From: Pirellulales bacterium | GTDB lineage: Bacteria; Planctomycetota; Planctomycetia; Pirellulales; JAICIG01 | Reading direction: 5' to 3' | Length of the DNA: 41,601 bases | Assembly: GCA_035533075.1 (NCBI GenBank) | Contig: DATLUO010000171.1 | Location: forward strand, 1 to 41,601 | Shown: one piece after another, positions 3 through 35,617 of the stretch | Numbering within the stretch: the first letter of the stretch is position 1 | Layout: each line of letters begins with the position of its first letter | Position numbers and translations under genes: made by a program | The notes under the pieces: generated by a model | Told to the model about the DNA's origin: nothing | Database searches by the model: none | The model's input: only the letters and a program-made list of their open reading frames with translations

Positions 3-413
3 CGCTACCGATTGCCGACCGAGGCCGAGTGGGAGTACGCCTGCCGGGCCGGCAAGAGCGAGGCGTATCGCTGGAGCGCGCGGCGCACGCCCGACGACAA
101 GTCGGGCGAAGCGGCGGGCATCGAGCCGGCGCTCGCCGTGAGCAAGGTCGGGAGCTATCCGGCCAATGCGTTTGGGCTCCACGACATGCGGGGCAACGTC
201 TGGGAGTGGTGTGGCGACTGGTTCGATCGCACCTATTACGGCCGTTCGCCGGTGGACGACCCCCAGGGACCCGCCGAGGGCTACCTCAAGGTCGTCCGCG
301 GCGGCGACTGGATTTTTGTGGGCGAGCCATGTCGCATCAACTACCCCATCATGTCTCCCTGGCGAAAAAGCCCGTTCGTGGGCTTCCGCGTCGTGTGCGA
401 GGTGGGAGAATAG
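3..413 (+). CDS. SUMF1/FGE-type domain protein, C-terminal part (5' end outside window)
   Basis: The reading frame is open from the first bases and begins with a typical SUMF1 (formylglycine-generating-enzyme-like) motif, RLPTEAEWEYACRAG. It continues with GLHDMRGNVWEWCGDW and ends with VVRGGDW and GFRVV, the usual closing blocks of this fold. True FGE activates sulfatases by oxidising a cysteine with a pair of active-site cysteines near the C-terminus. Here only one cysteine (EPCR) is visible in that area, so a non-catalytic or differently acting SUMF1 paralogue is more likely than a real sulfatase activator. Only about 136 residues are present. The true start and any N-terminal kinase or signal region lie upstream of the window. 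Confidence 0.85.
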   Translation, partial: RYRLPTEAEWEYACRAGKSEAYRWSARRTPDDKSGEAAGIEPALAVSKVGSYPANAFGLHDMRGNVWEWCGDWFDRTYYGRSPVDDPQGPAEGYLKVVRGGDWIFVGEPCRINYPIMSPWRKSPFVGFRVVCEVGE

Positions 414-429
414 ACTTCACGCCATGGGT

Positions 430-567
430 GGTAAAGCTTCGCCGAACCCGGTACGCAGGCGCCGGACACCAACCCGAAGCGCCAGCGAGGAACGTGAAAA
501 GGCGGCAAAACCTCGCTTGCGCTTCGGGTTAGTGTGAAAATGGGAACGGGTTCGGCGAAGCTTTACC
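430..567. repeat. Nested palindromic element (MITE/REP-like)
   Basis: The outer arms, 430-450 and 547-567, are perfect 21-bp inverted repeats beginning GGTAAAGCTTCGCCGAACCC. Inside them lie near-perfect 20-bp arms (471-490 and 511-530) reading AACCCGAAGCG and its complement. The inner arm recurs as a single copy at 3082-3106. The element fills the gap between the SUMF1 gene and the next gene, whose ATG follows the right arm directly. Confidence 0.8.
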
Positions 568-798
568 ATGACTGAAGAGAGGCCCGAGCAAGAACATGAA
601 CTGACGCCGCGGGAAGTCCGGCAGTGGGCCGAATTTTGCTGCTGGACCACGCTGGCGCTGGCCCCGTTTCTCTACTGGGTCAACGGTCCCGCCGTTTCCA
701 CGGACCAGTTCGTCGTCAGAACGGCGCTTGTCGCGCTGGCGGCCGCGGGCGCCGGCACGCTTCGGCTCTTCGCCTGGCGCAATCGAGGCCGCAAGTAG
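568..798 (+). CDS. Small two-helix membrane protein, unknown function
   Basis: This 76-residue protein has an acidic N-terminus (MTEERPEQEHELTPREV) and two hydrophobic stretches at about residues 27-40 and 48-65. It ends in a basic tail (RNRGRK), which suggests a small inner-membrane protein. No family is recognised. The ATG abuts the right arm of the palindromic element, so any ribosome-binding site would lie within the repeat; the start is therefore uncertain. A strong hairpin terminator follows at 932-961. It could also be a chance frame, but its composition is protein-like. Confidence 0.5.
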   Translation: MTEERPEQEHELTPREVRQWAEFCCWTTLALAPFLYWVNGPAVSTDQFVVRTALVALAAAGAGTLRLFAWRNRGRK

Positions 799-931
799 GC
801 AATCGAGGGCCCGACAATCGGGCGTGCTCGACCTGAGAGATCAGCACCCATTGCTCCTCGCCTGTTGCCGCTCTTGATCGTCGTATCATGAGTCACATCA
901 CCGCAGCAATTCGCGCACCATGCATTGCGTT

Positions 932-961
932 GCCCCGGTGGTCGCTCACCGGGGCGTTTTC
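932..961 (+). terminator. Rho-independent terminator
   Basis: A 9-bp GC-rich stem, GCCCCGGTG (932-940) with CACCGGGGC (947-955), has a 6-nt loop and is followed by GTTTTCT. It fits the plus-strand gene ending at 798. It overlaps the stop codon of the convergent minus-strand gene, which lacks a T-run on its own side. Confidence 0.7.
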
Positions 962-2988
962 TCCCGGCCCGTTGCGCCAGGGACGTGGGCCTTCGGTGGC
1001 CAGGCAAACGTGAACAGATAGCCCTGCGTCGTCATGAAGTACGCTTCGCCGCGTTCGTCCTCGCCGAACGAGAACACCGGCATGACGTTGCCGGCGATCG
1101 GCCGATTGGCCGTCACCTGCTTCTTGGCCTCGTCGTACCACAGCGCATAGACTTTGCCGGTGATGTAGTCGGCGTAAAGATACGCGCCCGCTAGTTCAGG
1201 CACGCGCTTGCCGCGATACACGTGCCCGCCGGTGATCGACTTGCCGACGTCGTGGTGATACTCGAAGATCGGGTCGATCAAGTCGCGTCGCCCAGCGGCG
1301 CCCTTGGGCCGAAACGGGTGCTTCCCCTCGCGCAGGTTCCAGCCGTAATTGCCGCCGCGCTCGATCAAATCGACCTCTTCCCAAATATCTTGGCCGACGT
1401 CGGCGGCCCACAGCGTGCCCGTCTGGCGGTCGAAGGCCATCCGCCAGGGGTTCCGCACGCCATAGGCCCAGATTTCGCCGCGGGCGTCCTGGCGGCCGAC
1501 GAAGGGATTGTCTTTGGGGATGGAATACCGCTTGTCGCCCTGGCGGCGATCGACGTCGATCCGCAAGATCGATCCCAGCAGCGTCGCCAGGTTTTGGCCG
1601 TTGCCTTGCGGGTCGTCGCGCAGGCCGCCGTCGCCCAGCCCGATGTAAAGGTAACCGTCGGGTCCGAAGACCAGCGTCCCGCCGTTGTGGTTCCAATACG
1701 GCTGCGGGATGCGCAGGATCTCTTCTTCGGTCGCCGCGTCGGCCCGGTCCGGGTTGTCCTTCGACACGCGGAAACGCGAGACGACCGACGTGTGCGGCGT
1801 GTCGGTCGTGGTGTAATAAGCAAAGAACTCGCCGTTCGACTTATAGCGCGGGTGGAAGGCGAGTCCCAAAAAGCCCTCTTCATTCTCCTTGTCGTCGTAG
1901 CGGACGCGCGACTCGATATCCAAGAACACGCCCGGCCTGGCCGCGCTCTGCTTGTTGCCAAACACAAACACTTTGCCAAGCTGCGAGGCGACGAAAACGC
2001 GGTCCGTGCCGTCGCCCGCGTGCGTCAGTACCAGCGGCCGATTGAATTCCAGCCGCGGAAACGCCCGTTCGATCATCACGTCGAGCGGGCGTTCGTCGAG
2101 CTCCACGGCGGGAATGCCGGAAAGCTTGATCTCCGAAAGCGTGCCGGCTTTCATGTCGGGCACGAGCAATCGGCCGTGTGCCTCGTCGAGACAGAGATCG
2201 GCGGCCGACTCGAACTTGCCGATTTGCGTGGGGGCGTGGCTTTCGCGTCCGAGCACCGAGATTTCGCCCGTCGACCATTGGCTGATGTAAAGCTTGCCGT
2301 TCTTGTCGCGTGCCAGTCCGTCGCCGCCGGGATAGCCCGCCGCCTGCCGCACCATCTTGCCGTCGGCCAGGTTGATTCGCTGCAATTCGCCGGAGCCGAA
2401 ATCAAGCATCAAGAGGTGTTCCGGGCCGTCGCACAACAGGCCGTTGGGCCCGTTCAGGCCTTTTGCCCGCGAGGTATCGGTAACGACCGACACCTTTCCG
2501 TCGGACGAAATCCGCCACACGGCCCCTGCGCCGCCTTTCAGATCGCCCGAATCGGAGACATAGAGCGCGCCGGATTCGTCGGCACACAGATCGTTGAGAA
2601 ACCGCGGCCTGACGGGAAACTGGCCCACGCCGACGAACACGGTGGCCTGACCCTTGTCGTCGATTTGCCAGACGCCCCGTTTGTCGGCGACGAACAAGGC
2701 GTTGTTGGCGAAGACCATTCCTTTGGGATCGTCGAGGCCCTTGGCAAAGGACCTGGCCGTGTTGCCGGCAAGCACCATGACCGCCCCATCGCCGTCTTTG
2801 TCAAACTCGCCGAGGGTGGTGACGTAGATGCGGCCCTCCCAACCGAGCGCGACTGACTCGGGGTTCTTCAGTCCTGTTGCCAGCACGGCGGCGGGCGACT
2901 CAGCGGCTAGGACCTGCGAGCCGTTCAAACAGAGCACGATCAAGAAGCTGAACTTGCAAAAATGCGACAGAAACTTCGGGCGATTCAC
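946..2988 (-). CDS. Secreted PQQ-dependent sugar dehydrogenase-like protein with N-terminal SMP-30/NHL-type propeller
   Basis: The protein has about 680 residues. The chosen GTG start gives VNRPKFLSHFCKF and a hydrophobic signal peptide ending near LAAES; an ATG at 3075 would add 29 residues coded by a repeat. Residues of about 35-290 form an SMP-30/gluconolactonase-like propeller (NGPNGLLCDG, GDGLARDKNGKLYIS). The C-terminal half is a glucose/sorbosone dehydrogenase domain, with EGFLGLAFHP, the catalytic-type NHNGG, GPDGYLYIGLGDGG, GSILRIDVD and GVRNPWR. The family oxidises sugars or related substrates with pyrroloquinoline quinone in the periplasm. The fusion of two propellers is seen directly; the substrate is unknown. 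It is transcribed away from the metal island. Confidence 0.85.
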   Translation of the reverse strand: MNRPKFLSHFCKFSFLIVLCLNGSQVLAAESPAAVLATGLKNPESVALGWEGRIYVTTLGEFDKDGDGAVMVLAGNTARSFAKGLDDPKGMVFANNALFVADKRGVWQIDDKGQATVFVGVGQFPVRPRFLNDLCADESGALYVSDSGDLKGGAGAVWRISSDGKVSVVTDTSRAKGLNGPNGLLCDGPEHLLMLDFGSGELQRINLADGKMVRQAAGYPGGDGLARDKNGKLYISQWSTGEISVLGRESHAPTQIGKFESAADLCLDEAHGRLLVPDMKAGTLSEIKLSGIPAVELDERPLDVMIERAFPRLEFNRPLVLTHAGDGTDRVFVASQLGKVFVFGNKQSAARPGVFLDIESRVRYDDKENEEGFLGLAFHPRYKSNGEFFAYYTTTDTPHTSVVSRFRVSKDNPDRADAATEEEILRIPQPYWNHNGGTLVFGPDGYLYIGLGDGGLRDDPQGNGQNLATLLGSILRIDVDRRQGDKRYSIPKDNPFVGRQDARGEIWAYGVRNPWRMAFDRQTGTLWAADVGQDIWEEVDLIERGGNYGWNLREGKHPFRPKGAAGRRDLIDPIFEYHHDVGKSITGGHVYRGKRVPELAGAYLYADYITGKVYALWYDEAKKQVTANRPIAGNVMPVFSFGEDERGEAYFMTTQGYLFTFAWPPKAHVPGATGREKTPR

Positions 2989-3081
2989 GTAGACGTCCCT
3001 CGTAGGGTTGAACAACGGTGCAAGTGACGAGCGTAACCCGCCAACCCGTCCTCCGCCAGAGGGCATCGGTGGCATGACTTG

Positions 3082-3106
3082 CCTCGCTGACGCTTCGGGT
3101 TAGTGT
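3082..3106. repeat. Single copy of the CTTCGGGTTAGTGT repeat
   Basis: The sequence CCTCGCTGACGCTTCGGGTT plus AGTGT matches 511-535 with two differences and matches 468-490 in inverse orientation. It lies just upstream of the sugar dehydrogenase gene and explains why an upstream-extended start is doubtful. Confidence 0.7.
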
Positions 3107-7342: not shown

Positions 7343-7837
7343 ATGACGCGGCGATGGTCGATCGTGGAATTGGCGCTGGCGGCGCTGCTGTTGCCTTGCG
7401 TGGCGGCGTGCGGCCGGCCATCGGGCTACGAGCGCTACGTGCCCAGCGCCGAACGGGCTCAGGAGGCGCTCGACCAGGTGTTGGCAGCCTGGAAGAGTGG
7501 TGAAACCGTGGAACCGCTGACGTTGAAATCGGCGCCGATCACCGTTCGCGTGGCCGACTCGACTCGGCGACCGGGTCAACGTTTGGTCGCCTACGATCTC
7601 TTGGGCGAGGTGTCTGGCGAAGGCCCGCGGACGTTCGTGGTGCGGCTCAATCTCGACGATCCCAGCGACGAGCAAGAGGTGCGTTATTACCTGGTCGGGA
7701 TCGACCCTCTATGGGTCTTTCGTCAGGAAGACTACGACGCCGTGGCCCACTGGGACGCTTGCGCGGGGGCGGAGGAGGGAGCGAGAGAGACGGAGCGAAG
7801 GAAAGACGGAGAAAGGGGGAGAGAATCTACGAGATGA
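7343..7837 (+). CDS. Small lipoprotein, relative of the one at 13854
   Basis: GGAGGTGAC at 7331-7339 is a near-ideal ribosome-binding site. The 164-residue protein has a lipoprotein signal (LLPCVAACGRP) and the blocks YVPSAERAQEALDQ, LAAWKSGE, LVAYDLLG and GIDPLWVFRQEDY. The lipoprotein at 13854-14246 carries the same blocks, so the pair are paralogues flanking the CusBA-type genes. The last 20 or so residues are low-complexity Glu/Arg coded by a purine-rich tract that looks like an addition. Its TGA overlaps the ATG of the adaptor gene (ATGA), indicating translational coupling. An envelope role linked to the exporter is inferred. Confidence 0.8.
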   Translation: MTRRWSIVELALAALLLPCVAACGRPSGYERYVPSAERAQEALDQVLAAWKSGETVEPLTLKSAPITVRVADSTRRPGQRLVAYDLLGEVSGEGPRTFVVRLNLDDPSDEQEVRYYLVGIDPLWVFRQEDYDAVAHWDACAGAEEGARETERRKDGERGRESTR

Positions 7838-9441
7838 ACATACCATCGACACGTACGGCGGAAAAACCCGCACATCGCTCCCTCCCTCCTTCGCCTCCTC
7901 CCTCATTCTCCGCACGGTGGGTGTTGCGCGTCGCCCAGGTTCGGCTGCGTTTTCTGTTCGTGCTGCTGGCCGCATTTTTGATCGTCGGCAAGTGGCACGT
8001 GCTGCGCAATTATTGGGACACGCTTACCATGCCCAGCCCGAGCAAGATGCTCAGCGGCGGCATCAACGGGGAGACGGAGTATTTCTGCCCCATGTGTCCC
8101 GGCGTGATCTCCGGCTGGCCGACGAAGTGTTCGGTGTGCAACATGCCGCTGGTCCGCCGCAAAAAAGGCGGCGCTCAGCAGCTTCCCGACGGCGTGCTGG
8201 CGCGGATGCAGATTTCGCCTTATCGCGTGCATTTGGCAGGCATCCAGACCGCGCCGGTTGAATATCGCCCGCTGGCGCGCGAGGTCGTGGCGCGGGGCAT
8301 GGTGGCTAAGGAGGCGTCAGGGGCGGGCGAGGATGCGTCAGGCGCAACCGGATTGGATGACGCCGTGGCCACGATCACTGCGGAGATCGATCAGCGAGAG
8401 ATTCCCTTCGTGACAGCGGGCGCGACCGCGACGGTTGTTGCCGATGGGGAACTGGCCGGTGAGCCACGCGAAGGCCGTGTAACGCAGGTCGCCCCCAAGG
8501 TCTCGCCCCAAACGCACCGCGTACACGTGGAGCTGGCGGCGGCCAACCCGCGTGGCGAGCTTTGGCCGGGCATGCAGGTGACGGTGCAGATTCGCCGGCC
8601 GATCTGCGAGCTGGAACCGTTTCGTTCGCTGCCCGCCGACCCGCCGCCGCCGGCCGAAGGGGAGTTGCGAAAGTTGTACATCTGTCACGAGCATCCCAGC
8701 CTGCTGCGCGAAAAGAGCGGGCGATGCCCCGAAGACAACAATTTGCTCATGGACCTGCCGCTCGCGGACCTTCAGCGTGTGGCTTGGTGGTGTCCGATGC
8801 ACCCCGACGTCACCGCCAGCGAGCCGGACAAGGTCTGCGAGGCGTGCAACGGCATGCGTCTCGTGCCGCGAATCGTACAGTATCGCCCGCCAGGCCAGGT
8901 GTTGGCGGTGCCCGAAAGCGCCGTGATCGACCTGGGCGATCGGCGCGTGGCGTATGTTGAGCAGATGCCCGGCATGTTCGATGCGTTGGAGGTCGTCGTG
9001 GGGCCGCGTTGCGACGGCTACTACCCGGTGGTCCGCGGCCTGCTGCCGGATCAACGCGTGGCTGCCACGGGCGCCTTCCTGCTCGACGCCGAGACGCGGC
9101 TGAACCCCAGCGTGGCCGCCGGTTATTTCGGCGCGTCGCTCGCGAGCGCGTCGTCGGCGGGCCCCTCGACGACGGCGGCGGCACCGTCCGGCAAAGAACC
9201 TTCCGCGAAAGAGGCGGCGGCAATTCGTGCCGCGCTCGACAAGCTTTCGTCGGACGACCGCGCGTCGGCCGAGCGGCAGAAACATTGTCCTATTACCGGC
9301 ATGCCGCTCGGTTCGATGGGCGCGCCAGTGAAGATCAACCTGAAAGCCCACACCGTCTGGCTCTGCTGTGCCGGTTGTGAAGCGGAAGCCTCGGAGCAGC
9401 CCCACAAAACCCTGGAAAAACTAAAACAGCGTAGCCGTTAG
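7834..9441 (+). CDS. CusB-like periplasmic adaptor of a heavy-metal RND exporter, with multiple metal-binding modules
   Basis: The 535-residue protein starts at the ATG overlapping the previous stop. A membrane anchor lies at about residues 36-54. A heavy-metal-binding (HMBD) module follows at about 82-108 (EYFCPMCPGVISGWPTKC). The central barrel has EIDQREIPFVTAG and LWPGMQVTVQIR, as in HlyD/CusB membrane fusion proteins. Two more Cys-rich modules follow near 281 (YICHEHPS, degenerate) and 317 (WWCPMHPDV, then CEACNGM). A C-terminal YHS-like piece (CPITGMPLGSMG, then LCCAGCEAEA) closes it. CusB-type adaptors link the inner-membrane pump to an outer-membrane channel and pass on Cu(I)/Ag(I). 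No channel gene is visible in the window. Confidence 0.9.
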   Translation: MNIPSTRTAEKPAHRSLPPSPPPSFSARWVLRVAQVRLRFLFVLLAAFLIVGKWHVLRNYWDTLTMPSPSKMLSGGINGETEYFCPMCPGVISGWPTKCSVCNMPLVRRKKGGAQQLPDGVLARMQISPYRVHLAGIQTAPVEYRPLAREVVARGMVAKEASGAGEDASGATGLDDAVATITAEIDQREIPFVTAGATATVVADGELAGEPREGRVTQVAPKVSPQTHRVHVELAAANPRGELWPGMQVTVQIRRPICELEPFRSLPADPPPPAEGELRKLYICHEHPSLLREKSGRCPEDNNLLMDLPLADLQRVAWWCPMHPDVTASEPDKVCEACNGMRLVPRIVQYRPPGQVLAVPESAVIDLGDRRVAYVEQMPGMFDALEVVVGPRCDGYYPVVRGLLPDQRVAATGAFLLDAETRLNPSVAAGYFGASLASASSAGPSTTAAAPSGKEPSAKEAAAIRAALDKLSSDDRASAERQKHCPITGMPLGSMGAPVKINLKAHTVWLCCAGCEAEASEQPHKTLEKLKQRSR

Positions 9442-9448
9442 CCGCCGC

Positions 9449-9516
9449 ATTTTGGATTTTCGATTTTGGATTTTGGATTGTCCGGAATCCAAAATCGAAA
9501 ATCCAAAATCCAAAAT
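9449..9516. repeat. TTTTGGATTTT inverted repeat between adaptor and pump genes
   Basis: Two 31-bp arms (9449-9479 and 9486-9516) made of ATTTTGGATTTTCGATTTTGG-type units are complementary except at two positions, with a 6-nt loop. The AT-rich palindrome occupies almost the whole gap between the two genes. It resembles interspersed repeats often seen in planctomycete genomes (general recollection, not checked). Confidence 0.85.
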
Positions 9517-9534
9517 CTGTCACCCCGAACCCTC

Positions 9535-12500
9535 TTGATCGACTGCATCATCGAACTCTCGGTCCGTCACCGCTGGGCGGTGATCGCCGCCGCGGTCGTG
9601 CTTGCGCTGGCGGGCGTCTACGCCGTTTACCACACGCCGATGGACGCCATTCCCGATGTGTCGGAAGACCAGGTGCTGGTCTTCGCCGACTGGCCGGGCC
9701 ACAGCCCCCGTGAGATCGAAGATCAGGTCACGTATCCGCTTTCGAGCGGCTTGCAAGGTTTGCCGGGGGTGCGCGTGGTGCGGTCGTCGAGCGAGTTCAA
9801 CTTCGCATCGATCAGCGTTATTTTGCAGGACGGCGTCGATTTCTATTTTGCCCGGCAGCAGATCGGCGAACGATTGCTGCGCGCCGGCGAGTCGTTGCCC
9901 TCCGGAGTCAAGGCATACCTTGCTCCCGACGGCGCCGCGACCGGCCAGATCTTCTGGTACACGGTCGAAGGCGAAGGCTACGACCTGGCGCGGCTGCGAT
10001 CGATCCAGGACTGGTACGTGCGCGGCCAGTTGGCCGGCGTGCCCGGCGTGGCCGAGGTGGCCAGCGTCGGTGGCCGCGTCATGGAATACCAGATCGAGCT
10101 CGACCCGCGGCGATTGGCCGAGTCGGGTCTCACGCCGGGCATGGTCACGCGCGCCGTGGCCGAGGCCAACCAGTCCGTCGGCGGGCAAGTCATCGAAAAG
10201 GCCAACGCCGAGTACTTGGTGCGCGGAGTCGGCTGGCTCGGTAGCCGATTGGTGGGAGAGAGCGAGGGAGAGAGCGAGAGAGGGAGGAATACGGCGGACC
10301 TCGTCCGCCACGATCTGGAAGAGGTTTTGATAACGTCGGCCAGCGGGCAAGCGGTGCGGCTTGCGGACGTGGCTGCGGTGTCGGTGGGATCCAATTTCCG
10401 CCGCGGCGTGTTCGAGATGCACGGCAACGAGGCGGTCGGAGGCGTCGTACTGATGCGCTACGGCGAGAACCCGCTGGAAGTCACCCGCCGGCTACGCGGC
10501 AAGATCAGCGAACTATCGACCGGACTGCCGCCGGGCGTGCGCATCATACCGGTCTACGACCGCACGCCGCTCATCACCAGTGCCGTAAGCACGGTCACGA
10601 GCGCCCTGCTGGAAGCGATCGTCACTGCCAGCCTCTGTGTGTTGCTGGTGCTCTGGCACGTCCGCACGTCGTTGGTGATTGCCGTTACGCTGCCGCTGGC
10701 CGCGCTGTCGTCGTTCGTGGCCATGTGGCTCTTGCGGCGGTTGGGAATCATCGACGTCCAGACCAACATCATGTCGCTGGCCGGCATTGTGGTGTCGCTG
10801 GGCGTGCTGGTCGACTCGTCGATCGTGATGGCCGAGAACGCCATGCACACGCTGCGAGGCCATTTCGGCGACCGGCCGGTGCGGGGCGACGTGCGGTGGC
10901 TGGTGCTGCCGGCCTGCCGCACGGTGGGCCGACCGATTTTTTTCTCGGTCGCCATCATGCTGGTCAGCTTCTTGCCGGTGTTTTGCCTGGGCGGCATTCA
11001 GGGCAAGATGTTTCAGCCGCTGGCGCTCACGAAATCGCTGGCGATGCTGGCCGTCGCCGTGCTGTCGATCACGCTGGTGCCGGCCCTGGCCAGCGTTTTC
11101 ATTCGCGGCCGGCTTCGCGATGAACGCTCCAACTGGCTGGTACGCGGCTTCGCGGACGTGTACCGGCCGGTGCTCGACTACTGTCTCAGCCATCCGGCGC
11201 CGTTGGTGTGGGTGCTCGCCGCTACGTTTCTCATCGGCTGTGCCCCGTTCGGGCATCGGGGCCTGCTGCTGGCGGTGCTGTTCGTTTTCATCGTGCTCTT
11301 GGGCGCCATGACGAAAACCTGGCGCGCGGCCGTCGGCTGCACGGTCAGTCTGGCGCTGGTGGCGCTGGTGGCCGAACAGAATATGCGGCCCTTGCTCTGG
11401 CAGAAGATGCCGCCCTTGAATGAAGGCATGGTGATGGACATGCCGATCACCGTGCCGCGCGCGTCGATCACCGAGGCCGCCGATGACCTCAAGGCCCGCG
11501 ACATGGTACTCTGCCGGTTTCCCGAAGTGGCGATGGTAATGGGCAAGGCCGGCAGGGCCGAGACGCCCACCGATCCCGCGCCCGTCGACATGATCGAGAC
11601 GATGGTCGAATTCCGCCCGCACGGGTTGTGGCCGAAGCGCCGGCTGACCGAACGCGATGCCCGGCGGCAGACCCAGGCCGTGCTGGCGGCACTGGTTGCC
11701 GAGGGAATGATCGAACCGCCGGCCGACGGGACGGCACAGGCGGCGCTGGTCGATGAAGCGACCAGCGAAGCGCTCGGCCGATTTGACGGCCTGATGCGAG
11801 AATACGCCTATCTGCGCAACGCCGAGTTCGAGGAGTCGCTGCCGCAAAAACTGGCAAAATGGCTGGTGGACGGCCTGGTCGCCCGACTCCAGCGGCAGGG
11901 CGTGTTTGAGCGCCCGCCGAGCGACGGCGAAATCGCCCAAGTCGCGCAGCGGCTGGTGCCCCATGCCGACCACCACCTGGCCGTTTCGCCACGGCTCGAC
12001 GACGTGACGCTTTTGGCACGGCACGCCGGACACAACCTTGCCGCGCTGGGACTGGTGCAGCCGGACGCTCAGCTCTTCGACGACCGGCCGCCGCTGGGGC
12101 AGCGTGCGTTCGACTTGGCCGCACGCGCCCTGGGCAAAACGCCGCCGACTTTTTTCACGCGCTTGACCAAGGATCTGCTGGCACATTACGCCGCGGCCTG
12201 GAGCGAGCACGTGCGCGAGCTGAACGCCCAGTTGTTTGCTCGCGGGACGGAGAGTTATACGCGGCTGGCCATCGAAGAAGTGCTGGGCCGCTCGACGCTG
12301 CGCGATGCGAAGCTGGCCGACTACCTGGCGCAGGTCCGCCGCTTTCGCTCTCGTCCGCCGCCGCAACACCGCTCCCATCACCACGTCGGCAGCTCGATGA
12401 ACATGCCACCGCCGCCCGACGTCGCGCCGCAACCCAAGTTGAAGGCCGTGCAGGAAAGCCTGGCCGCTTCCATGCGTTGGCGGGCACTCTTGTGGCGCTG

Positions 12501-13851
12501 CGAGCCGGCGGATTTGTCCGATCCCGGCGGAGAGCTGGACCGAGCGCTGCAGATGCCCGGCTGGGCGAATGTCTGGACGCGGCCGATTCAGAACCGCGTC
12601 GACATGTTGTTTACGGGCGTGAACACCGATATCGGCGTGCGCGTGCTGGGCCGAGAGCTCGACGATGTGATTCGCGCGTCGGAAGAAATCGCCGCCGTGT
12701 TGATGGGGGTTTCGGGAACGGAGTATGTCATGGCGGAAGCGGTCCGCGGCAAGGGCTATCTGGAGATTTGCGTCGATCGTGACAAAGCGGCGCTGCTCGG
12801 AGTCAGCATCGGCGAGGTCAACGACGTGATCGAGACGGCGGTGGGCGGCAAACTGGCCACGTCGACGGTTGAGGGCCGCGAGCGTCACGGCGTGCGCGTG
12901 CTTTACCCGCGCAACTGGCGTGAAGACGAAGAGACCATTCGCAGCTTGCCGGTGCCGCGACGGGCGACGACTGCCGACACTCTCCGCTCTGTAGGGAACG
13001 CACTCCGTGGCGTTCCGCGGCGGCAGGGTCGGCCTTCTCTCGCCATTCGCGGAACGCCACGGAGTGCGTTCCCTACAGACACCCTTCCGCTGGCCGAGGT
13101 GGCCGACGTGCGGATCGTGCAGGGGCCGGCCTCGATCAAAAGCGAGAACGGGCTGTTGCGGAATTACGTGCGACTGAACGTACGCGGACGCAGCGCGACG
13201 GACTTTATCGACGAGGCGCGGCGGACCCTTGCCGACCGGGTGACCTTGCCGTCGGGGGTGTATGTGGAGTGGACCGGGCAATTCGAGCATGACGCGCGGG
13301 CCATTCGCACGCTCGCCTTCGTGCTGCCGCTGGTGATCGCCTTGATTCTGCTGATTCTCTACTGGACCTATCACGATCTGGCCGACGCTCTGTTGATGTT
13401 GCTGGCGGTGCCGGGTGCGCTGGCCGGAGGCGTAATCTTTCAATGGCTGCTGGGCTACGATTTTTCGGTCACGGTGCTGGTGGGCTATATCGCCTGTTTC
13501 GGCATGGCCACGTCGACGGGCATCATCATGCTGGTCTACCTGCGCGAGGCGGTGGCCAGGCGCGGCGGGCTGGAGCAGATGAACCTCGCCGAGCTGCGCC
13601 AGGCGGTGATGGAAGGCGCCGTCCATCGCCTGCGGCCAAAGCTGCTCACCGAAGGCACGACGGTCCTCGGTCTGGCGCCTCTGCTATGGGCGACCGGCAC
13701 CGGGGCGGAAGTGATCAAGCCCATGGCCGCCCCGGTGCTGGGCGGCATTTTAATCGCCGACGAAGTCATCGATCTGTTGTTGCCGGTGCTGTTTTATTGG
13801 GTCCGCCGTTGGCGGAAAACAGGCGGCCTTTGGCCTTCGACACCAAGGTAA
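9535..13851 (+). CDS. CusA-like heavy-metal efflux RND pump with large extra periplasmic segment
   Basis: The TTG at 9535 gives LIDCIIELSVRHRWAV, the usual CusA start; the frame upstream is repeat sequence. The product is about 1438 residues against roughly 1040 for CusA. Family marks include MDAIPDVSEDQVLV, the proton-relay-type GVLVDSSIVMAEN at about residue 423 and GKAGRAETPTDPAPVDM near 670. Porter blocks from about 1007 (MPGWANVWTRPIQNRVDM) and GTGAEVIKPMAAPVLGG near the end follow. It exports metal ions from the periplasm using the proton gradient. Oddities: about 285 extra residues near 718-1003, an apparent extra membrane pair near 555-620, a Glu/Ser insert near 241-252 and a repeat-coded stretch at 1152-1181. 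Confidence 0.9.
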   Translation: MIDCIIELSVRHRWAVIAAAVVLALAGVYAVYHTPMDAIPDVSEDQVLVFADWPGHSPREIEDQVTYPLSSGLQGLPGVRVVRSSSEFNFASISVILQDGVDFYFARQQIGERLLRAGESLPSGVKAYLAPDGAATGQIFWYTVEGEGYDLARLRSIQDWYVRGQLAGVPGVAEVASVGGRVMEYQIELDPRRLAESGLTPGMVTRAVAEANQSVGGQVIEKANAEYLVRGVGWLGSRLVGESEGESERGRNTADLVRHDLEEVLITSASGQAVRLADVAAVSVGSNFRRGVFEMHGNEAVGGVVLMRYGENPLEVTRRLRGKISELSTGLPPGVRIIPVYDRTPLITSAVSTVTSALLEAIVTASLCVLLVLWHVRTSLVIAVTLPLAALSSFVAMWLLRRLGIIDVQTNIMSLAGIVVSLGVLVDSSIVMAENAMHTLRGHFGDRPVRGDVRWLVLPACRTVGRPIFFSVAIMLVSFLPVFCLGGIQGKMFQPLALTKSLAMLAVAVLSITLVPALASVFIRGRLRDERSNWLVRGFADVYRPVLDYCLSHPAPLVWVLAATFLIGCAPFGHRGLLLAVLFVFIVLLGAMTKTWRAAVGCTVSLALVALVAEQNMRPLLWQKMPPLNEGMVMDMPITVPRASITEAADDLKARDMVLCRFPEVAMVMGKAGRAETPTDPAPVDMIETMVEFRPHGLWPKRRLTERDARRQTQAVLAALVAEGMIEPPADGTAQAALVDEATSEALGRFDGLMREYAYLRNAEFEESLPQKLAKWLVDGLVARLQRQGVFERPPSDGEIAQVAQRLVPHADHHLAVSPRLDDVTLLARHAGHNLAALGLVQPDAQLFDDRPPLGQRAFDLAARALGKTPPTFFTRLTKDLLAHYAAAWSEHVRELNAQLFARGTESYTRLAIEEVLGRSTLRDAKLADYLAQVRRFRSRPPPQHRSHHHVGSSMNMPPPPDVAPQPKLKAVQESLAASMRWRALLWRCEPADLSDPGGELDRALQMPGWANVWTRPIQNRVDMLFTGVNTDIGVRVLGRELDDVIRASEEIAAVLMGVSGTEYVMAEAVRGKGYLEICVDRDKAALLGVSIGEVNDVIETAVGGKLATSTVEGRERHGVRVLYPRNWREDEETIRSLPVPRRATTADTLRSVGNALRGVPRRQGRPSLAIRGTPRSAFPTDTLPLAEVADVRIVQGPASIKSENGLLRNYVRLNVRGRSATDFIDEARRTLADRVTLPSGVYVEWTGQFEHDARAIRTLAFVLPLVIALILLILYWTYHDLADALLMLLAVPGALAGGVIFQWLLGYDFSVTVLVGYIACFGMATSTGIIMLVYLREAVARRGGLEQMNLAELRQAVMEGAVHRLRPKLLTEGTTVLGLAPLLWATGTGAEVIKPMAAPVLGGILIADEVIDLLLPVLFYWVRRWRKTGGLWPSTPR
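12988..13079. repeat. Perfect 32-bp inverted repeat inserted in the RND pump gene
   Basis: The arms 12988-13019 and 13048-13079 are exact complements (starting TCTGTAGGGAACGCACTCCG) separated by 28 bp. The element is translated within the pump as SVGNALRGVP and, on the other arm, RGTPRSAFPTD, without breaking the frame. It looks like a REP/MITE-type insertion. Confidence 0.9.
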
Positions 13852-33602: not shown

Positions 33603-35447
33603 CTACGCGGAACGAAGCGCGTCGAGGGCCAGCTCGACTTCGCGAAAGGGCGGCGCGTGGACGAGGTCGGCGCCGGCGCGCAGGGGGGCCAGCAGCTTGC
33701 CCAGCAGCTCGCGCTCCAGCCAATCGGCCAGCCATTGGGCACGCATTTCGGCGTAGCGAAGCTGCAAGCGACGGAAGAGACGGGCGGCCGCCTGCGTCAC
33801 GCCCTCGCCCGTCACGGTCACCACGGCCTCGCCGCCGACCGTCGTGCCGCCGGCAATCATGGCCTCGGTTGCCAAATGACTGGCCGTCTGGCCGGCCAGG
33901 TGCGCCGCCGCGTGGCCCACGACGTCGCCGGCCAGAATCCAGCCGCTGACGGCCAGCGTGACCGTGATCGCCGGCCTGGCCACCGCGGCCGCGTTGTCGA
34001 GCGACCGCAGCACGTTGATGGCGCCGGGGTTCCCTTCGCTCCAACGATCGAGCTCGCTCCGCAGGAAGGCGCGGTAGTCGTCGTCGAGCGCCGGCAACGC
34101 CGCGTGGGCCGCGGCCAGCCGTGCCAACAACGCCTCACGCGCGGCCCCGCCCAACATCGCCGCCAGCCGCGGCCGCAGCACGTCGTTGCCGATCTGCGAA
34201 AGGCGGTCGAGCTCGGCCAGCAGTTTTTCCAAGGCTTCGACAATCGCCTGCCGCTCACGGGCGCGAAACGTCTCCTGCGGCGGCTCGGCGTCGCCCCGCG
34301 CCGTCCGCCACGCCTCGCGCACCGGCCAGGAAACGCCCTGACCCACGACGCGATAGAAGGCGTGAATCTTGCGCGACCAGCCGCTGCGCCGGGCGTCCCA
34401 CCAGGCACGGACTTCATCGACCAGCAAACGTGGCGGCAGCGTCGGCCAGTCGACGCGGGCCATCTGCGCCGCGTTCAACGTCTTGTTGGCGGCCGCAAAC
34501 TCGGCACTCGCCTCGCGCAACTGCCAGAGCCAGGCCGGCACGCCGCCGTCGCGGTCGAGCAACCGGGCCAACGCCCCGCGGAATGTGCGGACCTTGATGG
34601 CGTCGAAATGGAGCTGAGCCAACTCCGCCTGCAACGATGCGGGTCCACCGAGCGGGGCATGGCCATCGGGTCCGACTTCGCAAAACGGCAATCGCAGGTG
34701 GTTGGCGGCCGCGCGGTCGTAAGGCACGACGTACACGTGGTCCGGGCGAGCGCCCGTTTCGGCCGTAAACGTGGCCAGCCACTGCGGCCAATAGTCGCGG
34801 TCTTCGGCCAGGTCGCACTGGTTGAAGACCACGATCACCGGCTTGTCGGCCTCGGCGGCCTTGCGGAAGAACTGCTTCACCGCCGCGTCGTTGTACTTCT
34901 GCTGCGTGAGCACGGCGATCAGCACGTCGGCCGAACGGCGGATCTGGTCGGCACGCAGCCAGTTCACCGCCGCATCGGAATCGACGTCGGGCGTGTCGAG
35001 CAGCAACAGCCGCGGAGGCACGCTTTCGGCCAGCCGCCAGAAGAGGAGATGCTCGGCGCAGTCGGTCAGCGAGTCGGCGGCCGACTGCCACTCGCGCAGC
35101 TCGAAGCCTTCGAACAGGCGCGCGAGGAGCCGGGCGTCGTCGAAGCCCGGCGGCACAAGGCAGATGGGATGCCGGGTGCCGGCGGCCAGCGGACTGACGG
35201 CGCTGGCGTTTTGGCCGGCCAGGTGGTTGAATATCACCGACTTGCCGATGTTGGTGCCGCCCACGACCGCCACGACCAGGGCGGGTTTGATACCGAGTTG
35301 GGGCAACAGCTTGTGCTTGAGCAGCTCGGACCACTCCTGATTTTCGGGCGTGGGCATGCCCAGCGTGGCCGCGGCCGCGGCCAGCTCGTCGAGCGCGCAG
35401 TGCAGCCGTTGGATTTGTTCCGCCCAAAGATCGAAAGCGACGCTCAT
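33603..35447 (-). CDS. Dynamin-like / ribosome-binding-type GTPase
   Basis: The 614-residue protein starts at MSVAFDLWAEQIQRLHCALD; upstream in-frame codons belong to repeats. The GTPase motifs are G1 VVGGTNIGKS (63-70), G3 LLLLDTPDVDS (about 147-157) and G4 VFNQCD (NQCD at 209-212, where NKxD is usual). A long Ala/Leu/Arg-rich helical C-terminus contains a hydrophobic stretch (AITVTLAVSGWILAGDVVGH) that may bind membrane. Together these suggest a dynamin-superfamily or MMR-HSR1-type GTPase acting at the membrane. It stands alone; the neighbouring genes give no clue to its partner. Confidence 0.85.
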   Translation of the reverse strand: MSVAFDLWAEQIQRLHCALDELAAAAATLGMPTPENQEWSELLKHKLLPQLGIKPALVVAVVGGTNIGKSVIFNHLAGQNASAVSPLAAGTRHPICLVPPGFDDARLLARLFEGFELREWQSAADSLTDCAEHLLFWRLAESVPPRLLLLDTPDVDSDAAVNWLRADQIRRSADVLIAVLTQQKYNDAAVKQFFRKAAEADKPVIVVFNQCDLAEDRDYWPQWLATFTAETGARPDHVYVVPYDRAAANHLRLPFCEVGPDGHAPLGGPASLQAELAQLHFDAIKVRTFRGALARLLDRDGGVPAWLWQLREASAEFAAANKTLNAAQMARVDWPTLPPRLLVDEVRAWWDARRSGWSRKIHAFYRVVGQGVSWPVREAWRTARGDAEPPQETFRARERQAIVEALEKLLAELDRLSQIGNDVLRPRLAAMLGGAAREALLARLAAAHAALPALDDDYRAFLRSELDRWSEGNPGAINVLRSLDNAAAVARPAITVTLAVSGWILAGDVVGHAAAHLAGQTASHLATEAMIAGGTTVGGEAVVTVTGEGVTQAAARLFRRLQLRYAEMRAQWLADWLERELLGKLLAPLRAGADLVHAPPFREVELALDALRSA

Positions 35448-35479
35448 GCAGCAGTAGATGGTAGGCCGCGGGGGGGAGG

Positions 35480-35505
35480 AATTGCAAATTGCAAATTGCG
35501 AATTG
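35480..35505. repeat. AATTGCAAATTGC short tandem units
   Basis: GAATTGCAAATTGCAAATTG is followed by CGAATTG, about three tandem 8-bp units in an AT-rich island within GC-rich sequence. It is probably another interspersed repeat family. Confidence 0.5.
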
Positions 35506-35518
35506 ATAATCAGCGAAT

Positions 35519-35617
35519 GTAAGGTGGGACCAGCGAGCTTGCGAGCTCTGGCCAACCGCGAAAGACGTCGTTGCCAACGGTGGGCCGGCGCTCGCAAGCT
35601 CGCTGGTCCCACCTTAC
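35519..35617. repeat. Perfect 28-bp inverted repeat
   Basis: The arms 35519-35546 and 35590-35617 (GTAAGGTGGGACCAGCGAGC type) are exact complements around 43 bp. It lies between the GTPase gene and the Sir2 remnant. TAGGGTGGGAGCG at 40971 may be a partial copy. Confidence 0.85.

Follow-up and report, generated by a model that had tools for sequence, protein, structure and literature searches.

The question raised by this locus is how a perfect palindrome has come to lie inside a pump gene that stays open to translation through it. The window, that is, the whole stretch of 41,601 nucleotides analysed here, comes from the draft genome of a Pirellulales bacterium (G000, 8.54 Mb in 296 contigs) and contains at 9466..13851 on the forward strand a CusA/CzcA-type RND pump gene, identified by ORF calling, Pfam and alignment with a CusA structure, and adjoined at 7711..9441 (+) by an adaptor-type gene with heavy-metal-binding and HlyD domains. 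The pump ORF starts with TTG, encodes 1461 aa and matches the Pfam family ACR_tran (E=4.8e-190) and the structure of E. coli CusA, 3k07 (E=6.5e-202); its start is uncertain, the first ~20 codons being repeat-like. The palindrome occupies 92 bp at 12988..13079 (+) and consists of a left arm (12988..13019, +), a spacer of 28 nt (13020..13047) and a right arm (13048..13079, -), the arms being 32 nt each and 100% complementary in an inverted-repeat search. As the sequence-only reading had claimed, the translation runs through it uninterrupted: codon 1175 starts at 12988, and the element encodes 30 full residues and two bases of the next codon, adding to the pump the peptide SVGNALRGVPRRQGRPSLAIRGTPRSAFPT. 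A second frame is open as well, and the third is shut by TAG within a GTAG tetranucleotide. The very stable hairpin expected in the coding part of the mRNA is also predicted by folding, which gives -80.5 kcal/mol where shuffled versions average -37.4 (z -12.1).

The anatomy of the palindrome is that of GTAG-tagged REPs, each arm consisting of TCT, GTAG and then a hairpin. In the left arm, which is a forward REP, CT lies at 12989-12990 and GTAG at 12991-12994, followed by GGAACGC...GCGTTCC, an imperfect palindrome with the tetranucleotide at its base; the right arm is an inverted REP with CTAC at 13073-13076. Two inverted REPs and their spacer form one long hairpin, so the element is a REPIN, and it is inserted in frame into a protein gene in the manner of Rickettsia palindromic elements. 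The explanation which we prefer, with a probability of roughly 85%, is that a RAYT (TnpA-REP) transposase spreads a GTAG-type REP family in this genome, that the pump element is one of the family's REPINs, and that purifying selection sifted the insertions afterwards, this one being tolerated in a permissive loop of the protein.

The family is dispersed over the source genome in high copy number. BLAST with the pump element gave 90 matches, the REP pattern with up to two mismatches gave 195 (104+91), and 45 exact REPINs were found, each on both strands, while the control searches, with the reversed pattern in the case of the REPs, gave 0+0 and 0, respectively. These counts, together with the fact that 0/200 shuffles were as stable as the element, place the palindrome far beyond chance. 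When 100 listed REP matches out of the 195 and all 45 exact REPINs were assembled into 74 element groups, 48 were simple doublets and 26 were of other forms, among which single REPs and tandem arrays were common. Furthermore, at up to one mismatch the REP occurs in 18/196 sampled genomes, namely its own and 17/195 others, the sample being composed of the own genome, one of the same family and a remainder listed as the same order; the nearest relative, G001, has 105+112 matches at this threshold. Among the matches listed, named records with the REP are mostly Planctomycetota (Pirellulales, Gemmataceae, Pirellula, Planctomicrobium), the others including Desulfobacterales, Clostridia, Ruminococcus and Armatimonadota. 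That the palindrome is native coding sequence which happens to be symmetrical, or an error of assembly, has in its favour the draft state of the genome in 296 contigs, but with the same family spread across this genome and 17/195 other sampled genomes, orthologues that do not have the residues and a frame that is intact across both joins, this is scarcely credible.

The ends of the elements are well defined. Reading outward from GTAG at 128 ends, the preceding bases are T in 126, C in 125, T in 116 and then C in 77, beyond which conservation drops, so that a CT dinucleotide directly precedes GTAG at nearly all ends (C 125/128, T 126/128). TnpA-REP enzymes of E. coli and Stenotrophomonas maltophilia are described as cutting at CT beside the REP in PMC8266576. 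No target duplication was detected, the flanks of 53 REPINs scoring a mean of 5.45 vs 5.49 for shuffled pairs. This bears on another reading, in which the element would be a classical MITE: a shortened DNA transposon that has terminal inverted repeats, depends on a DDE transposase and leaves a target duplication. Inverted-repeat ends, short length and many copies agree with a MITE, but the flanks without duplication, the common single REPs and tandem arrays (26/74 groups are not simple doublets), and the GTAG/CT anatomy with its RAYT linkage make it very unlikely.

The RAYT linkage was found by searching the source genome for Y1 transposases, which gave 12 loci. One of them (L042) has a 191-aa ORF that sits among GTAG REPs, bracketed by 3 forward and 2 inverted REPs of the pump-element family, and no such REPs were found at the other 11 Y1-transposase loci. 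The ORF on its own scores 22.5 bits against the Pfam model Y1_Tnp, just under the cut-off of 23, and 23.6 bits together with its neighbours. The orthologue in G001 (L302), 75% identical, is enclosed by 3 forward and 5 inverted REPs; a candidate RAYT gene with REPs of the matching family on both sides, the REPtron layout, is thus present in two genera, which have kept a likely cognate transposase. A strict pairing of one RAYT with this family is contradicted by its distribution: matches to the candidate at E<=1e-8 occur in only 3/18 REP-positive genomes and no REPs of the family were found beside the weaker RAYT matches in REP-positive genomes; other RAYTs may serve those genomes which have no close match to it.

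The pump gene of G001 shows the site without the element. Its product is 70% identical to the pump described here up to residue 1164 and 85% identical from residue 1207, and between them it has three residues (AGG) where the REPIN-bearing pump has 43. The stretch replacing these three residues (~12955..13083, +; residues ~1164-1206) consists of the REPIN and, net, about 28 nt of other sequence, the net difference being 120 nt (92 + 28). The residues are therefore foreign, as supposed in the sequence-only reading, and none of the orthologues examined shares them; their presence in an orthologue free of the palindrome would have spoken for native coding sequence. The second porter region, which had been named as the site, can be stated more precisely as the CusA loop bounded by residues 796 and 804 in the 3k07 alignment, a loop of seven residues (797-803) in the E. 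coli protein; the region around it we take to be a porter or docking domain. Among 20 aligned homologous fragments, 12 have a short turn at the site, 7 have unrelated linkers and one is the AGG of G001, and a pump paralogue in the own genome has yet another linker there. In an AlphaFold model of residues 1016-1290 (pTM 0.54, the first 40 model residues poor too), the insert (model residues 151-190) lies between strands 147-149 and 191-193 with a mean pLDDT of 50-61, and the core (41-150 and 191-260) is mostly at 80-96. Given the varying length of the loop among homologues and the low confidence of the modelled insert, this place probably tolerated extra sequence already when the REPIN arrived. 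Since the element keeps the frame and falls into a flexible loop on the surface, the pump protein is probably still functional, and most likely the pump works with about 40 extra residues in that loop.

A decaying gene, that is, an inactive pump whose frame stays open through the element by luck, should be weighed here. A 92-bp REPIN is open in 2/3 frames per strand, so that finding the frame open would not be surprising in itself; however, codon use is of the coding type on both sides of the element (in a survey whose training data included the window) and the net change in length can be divided by three. Decay is thus quite unlikely. Under the preferred explanation, the pump copy persisted because the surface loop was already variable in length, there was no stop in frame and the net change was a multiple of three.

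How the frame was kept is a related matter. It had been proposed that a 92-bp element needs a 1- or 4-base addition, so that insertion and target duplication may be tuned, and this found no support. The comparison with G001 gives a net 120 nt, so that besides the element 28 nt of other sequence differ and no addition of 1 or 4 bases can be read from it. In addition, the lengths of the REPINs vary (92 nt in 21/53, 93 in 8, 94 in 8), the commonest length, which is also that of the pump copy, cannot be divided by three, and the flanks show no duplication; an insertion length tuned to the frame is thus unsupported. Among the 48 simple REPINs, lengths divisible by three occur in 3/6 within genes vs 6/42 of the others (Fisher p = 0.07), where two of the six (L024 and L248) are counted as in genes by codon bias and open frame only, with no orthologue. 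For unselected REPINs, as computed from 48 of them, 57% of strand-frames would be open, but only 10.8% would combine an open frame with a length divisible by three. Selection after insertion explains in-frame survival better: single-strand cutting and joining by a RAYT would have placed the REPIN in the pump gene of this lineage, and purifying selection would then have removed frame-breaking insertions, leaving in-frame ones in loops, which makes tuned insertion unnecessary.

The pump gene is not the only one that is interrupted in this way. The flanks of the 74 element groups were fetched, 20 spanning ORFs were scanned with Pfam, and G001 was searched with composite queries around 15 in-frame elements and two loci with a frame change. 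At least five further in-frame elements, six including that of the pump gene, have a clear, continuous orthologue in G001 that does not contain the element; the genes encode a Ser/Thr kinase (L010), a DUF7133 protein (L237), an S9 peptidase (L256), MnmA (L267) and an Lhr-type helicase (L027). Since these cases were chosen for their open ORFs, they demonstrate the occurrence of in-frame insertions and not their rate or a frame bias. In G001, nothing matching the flanks on both sides was found for L024, L248, L050, L257, L258, L262 (a REP in a DnaE-type gene according to Pfam) or L269, L239 has a weak downstream match only, and L259 was left out of the count with a G001 match of only 35%.

A rough codon-bias survey of the 74 groups, the training set of which overlaps some of the test loci, called 10 as coding on both sides in the same frame, 5 on the same strand in another frame and 1 on opposite strands, with 58 groups having no two-sided coding call, and no gene broken by an element was found among them. 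The candidates for broken genes were rejected: in L002, L064 and L247 a stop separates the element from the coding stretch upstream, in L236 the element falls between two genes, which in G001 are distinct, and in L264, which has no G001 match, it lies just before an apparent gene start, presumably that of hflK. Likewise L003 was rejected as an in-gene copy, its REPIN being at the junction of two genes separate in G001; the locus (G000:C133, ORF 319-3090 minus) has one open frame across both genes, a possible fusion or read-through. In other genomes, a rough scan of the loci from named records and sampled genomes with the codon table of G000 gave two translated REPs, an underestimate because this table is unsuited to other genomes. 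In JAICLL010000067.1 (L110, position 4365) a REP lies within a very long open frame, with 1410 codons on one side and 1042 on the other, so that genome, too, seems to have translated REPs.

The window and the source genome also contain other repeats. A second repeat family (GTAAGGTGGGACCAGCGAGCTTGCGAGC...) forms an inverted pair resembling a REPIN at 35519-35617, right after ORF 33657-35522; its core pattern has 344+365 matches in the genome against 0+0 in the control. This family is translated as VGWDQRACERRPT...GGPALASSLVPPY at L027, L236, L257, L258 and L262 (Lhr-type, DnaE-type and other ORFs). In L262 (G000:C116; DnaE-type ORF 630-3026 minus) a linker of about 80 residues includes GFRVQGSGFR, the REP and the second family, all translated. 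In L010, L259 and L262 and at the start of ORF 9466, simple repeats that translate as NPKSKIQN or GFRVQGSG turn up in loops and near gene starts.

It is also conceivable that the element has been exapted, the hairpin or the loop now serving, for example, to make ribosomes pause while the pump folds, to control the stability of the mRNA or to provide the efflux complex with a new contact. Perfect 32-bp arms are present in only 7/48 simple REPINs, the RNA hairpin, which may slow ribosomes, is predicted to be very stable and the frame is intact, all of which would suit exaptation. Nevertheless, the same family lies in unrelated genes, relatives do without the element, the insert is modelled with low confidence and perfect arms may merely reflect a recent copy, so that exaptation is unlikely. 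A wider proposal is that in this lineage RAYT-driven repeats keep furnishing proteins with new loops: simple repeats and members of at least two REP families would enter the same permissive linkers repeatedly, and some inserts, perhaps including the pump loop or hairpin, would be kept for changing folding, pausing or complex assembly; at present it should be regarded as a rather long shot.

Several known systems resemble this one. In PMC3733652, GTAG-tagged REPs are described as in-frame doublets coding for 20-30 residues in many unrelated genes, many of them repair genes, loops are suggested as the sites tolerating REPs in genes, and a GTAG REP superfamily is reported in Planctomycetes. The GTAG tag, the translated in-frame doublet and the loop site are common to those REPs and the present one, whereas here the site is seen empty in a relative and a cognate RAYT is proposed; neither GTAGGGAACG nor the planctomycete genus names looked for are present in the main text of that paper. 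With the Pseudomonas REPINs and RAYTs, according to PMC3116915, the mobile unit of two inverted REPs plus spacer and its linkage to a RAYT are shared, but those REPINs are nearly all extragenic, unlike the translated pump copy. REPs inside tnpA-REP genes, as given in PMC6006769, have in common with it a frame-keeping insertion in a peripheral region of the protein, but the hosts here are unrelated genes (pump, kinase, helicase, MnmA). The classic case is that of the Rickettsia palindromic elements, which are likewise palindromes that sit in unrelated protein genes, keep their frame and are translated; the host phylum is different, and the likeness considered here is that of in-frame palindromes (PMC10969869, PMC3733652). 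In-frame REPs inside genes having been published already, the translated pump REPIN belongs to a known kind of event. In the literature listings on in-gene palindromic elements, on REPINs and RAYTs, on planctomycete REPs and on in-frame REPs, and in the papers cited here, no report of this REP family in a pump gene was found.

The pump gene and the five other genes are clear cases, each with an element-free orthologue, of REPs turned into protein sequence in a planctomycete-like genome. For annotators, peptides like VGNALRGVP or RNATEGVPY should be read as repeats, not as domains. Together with the likely cognate transposase kept in two genera, these cases allow one to ask whether selection alone, as against the chemistry of insertion, keeps the frame, and at what rate new protein loops arise from selfish repeats.
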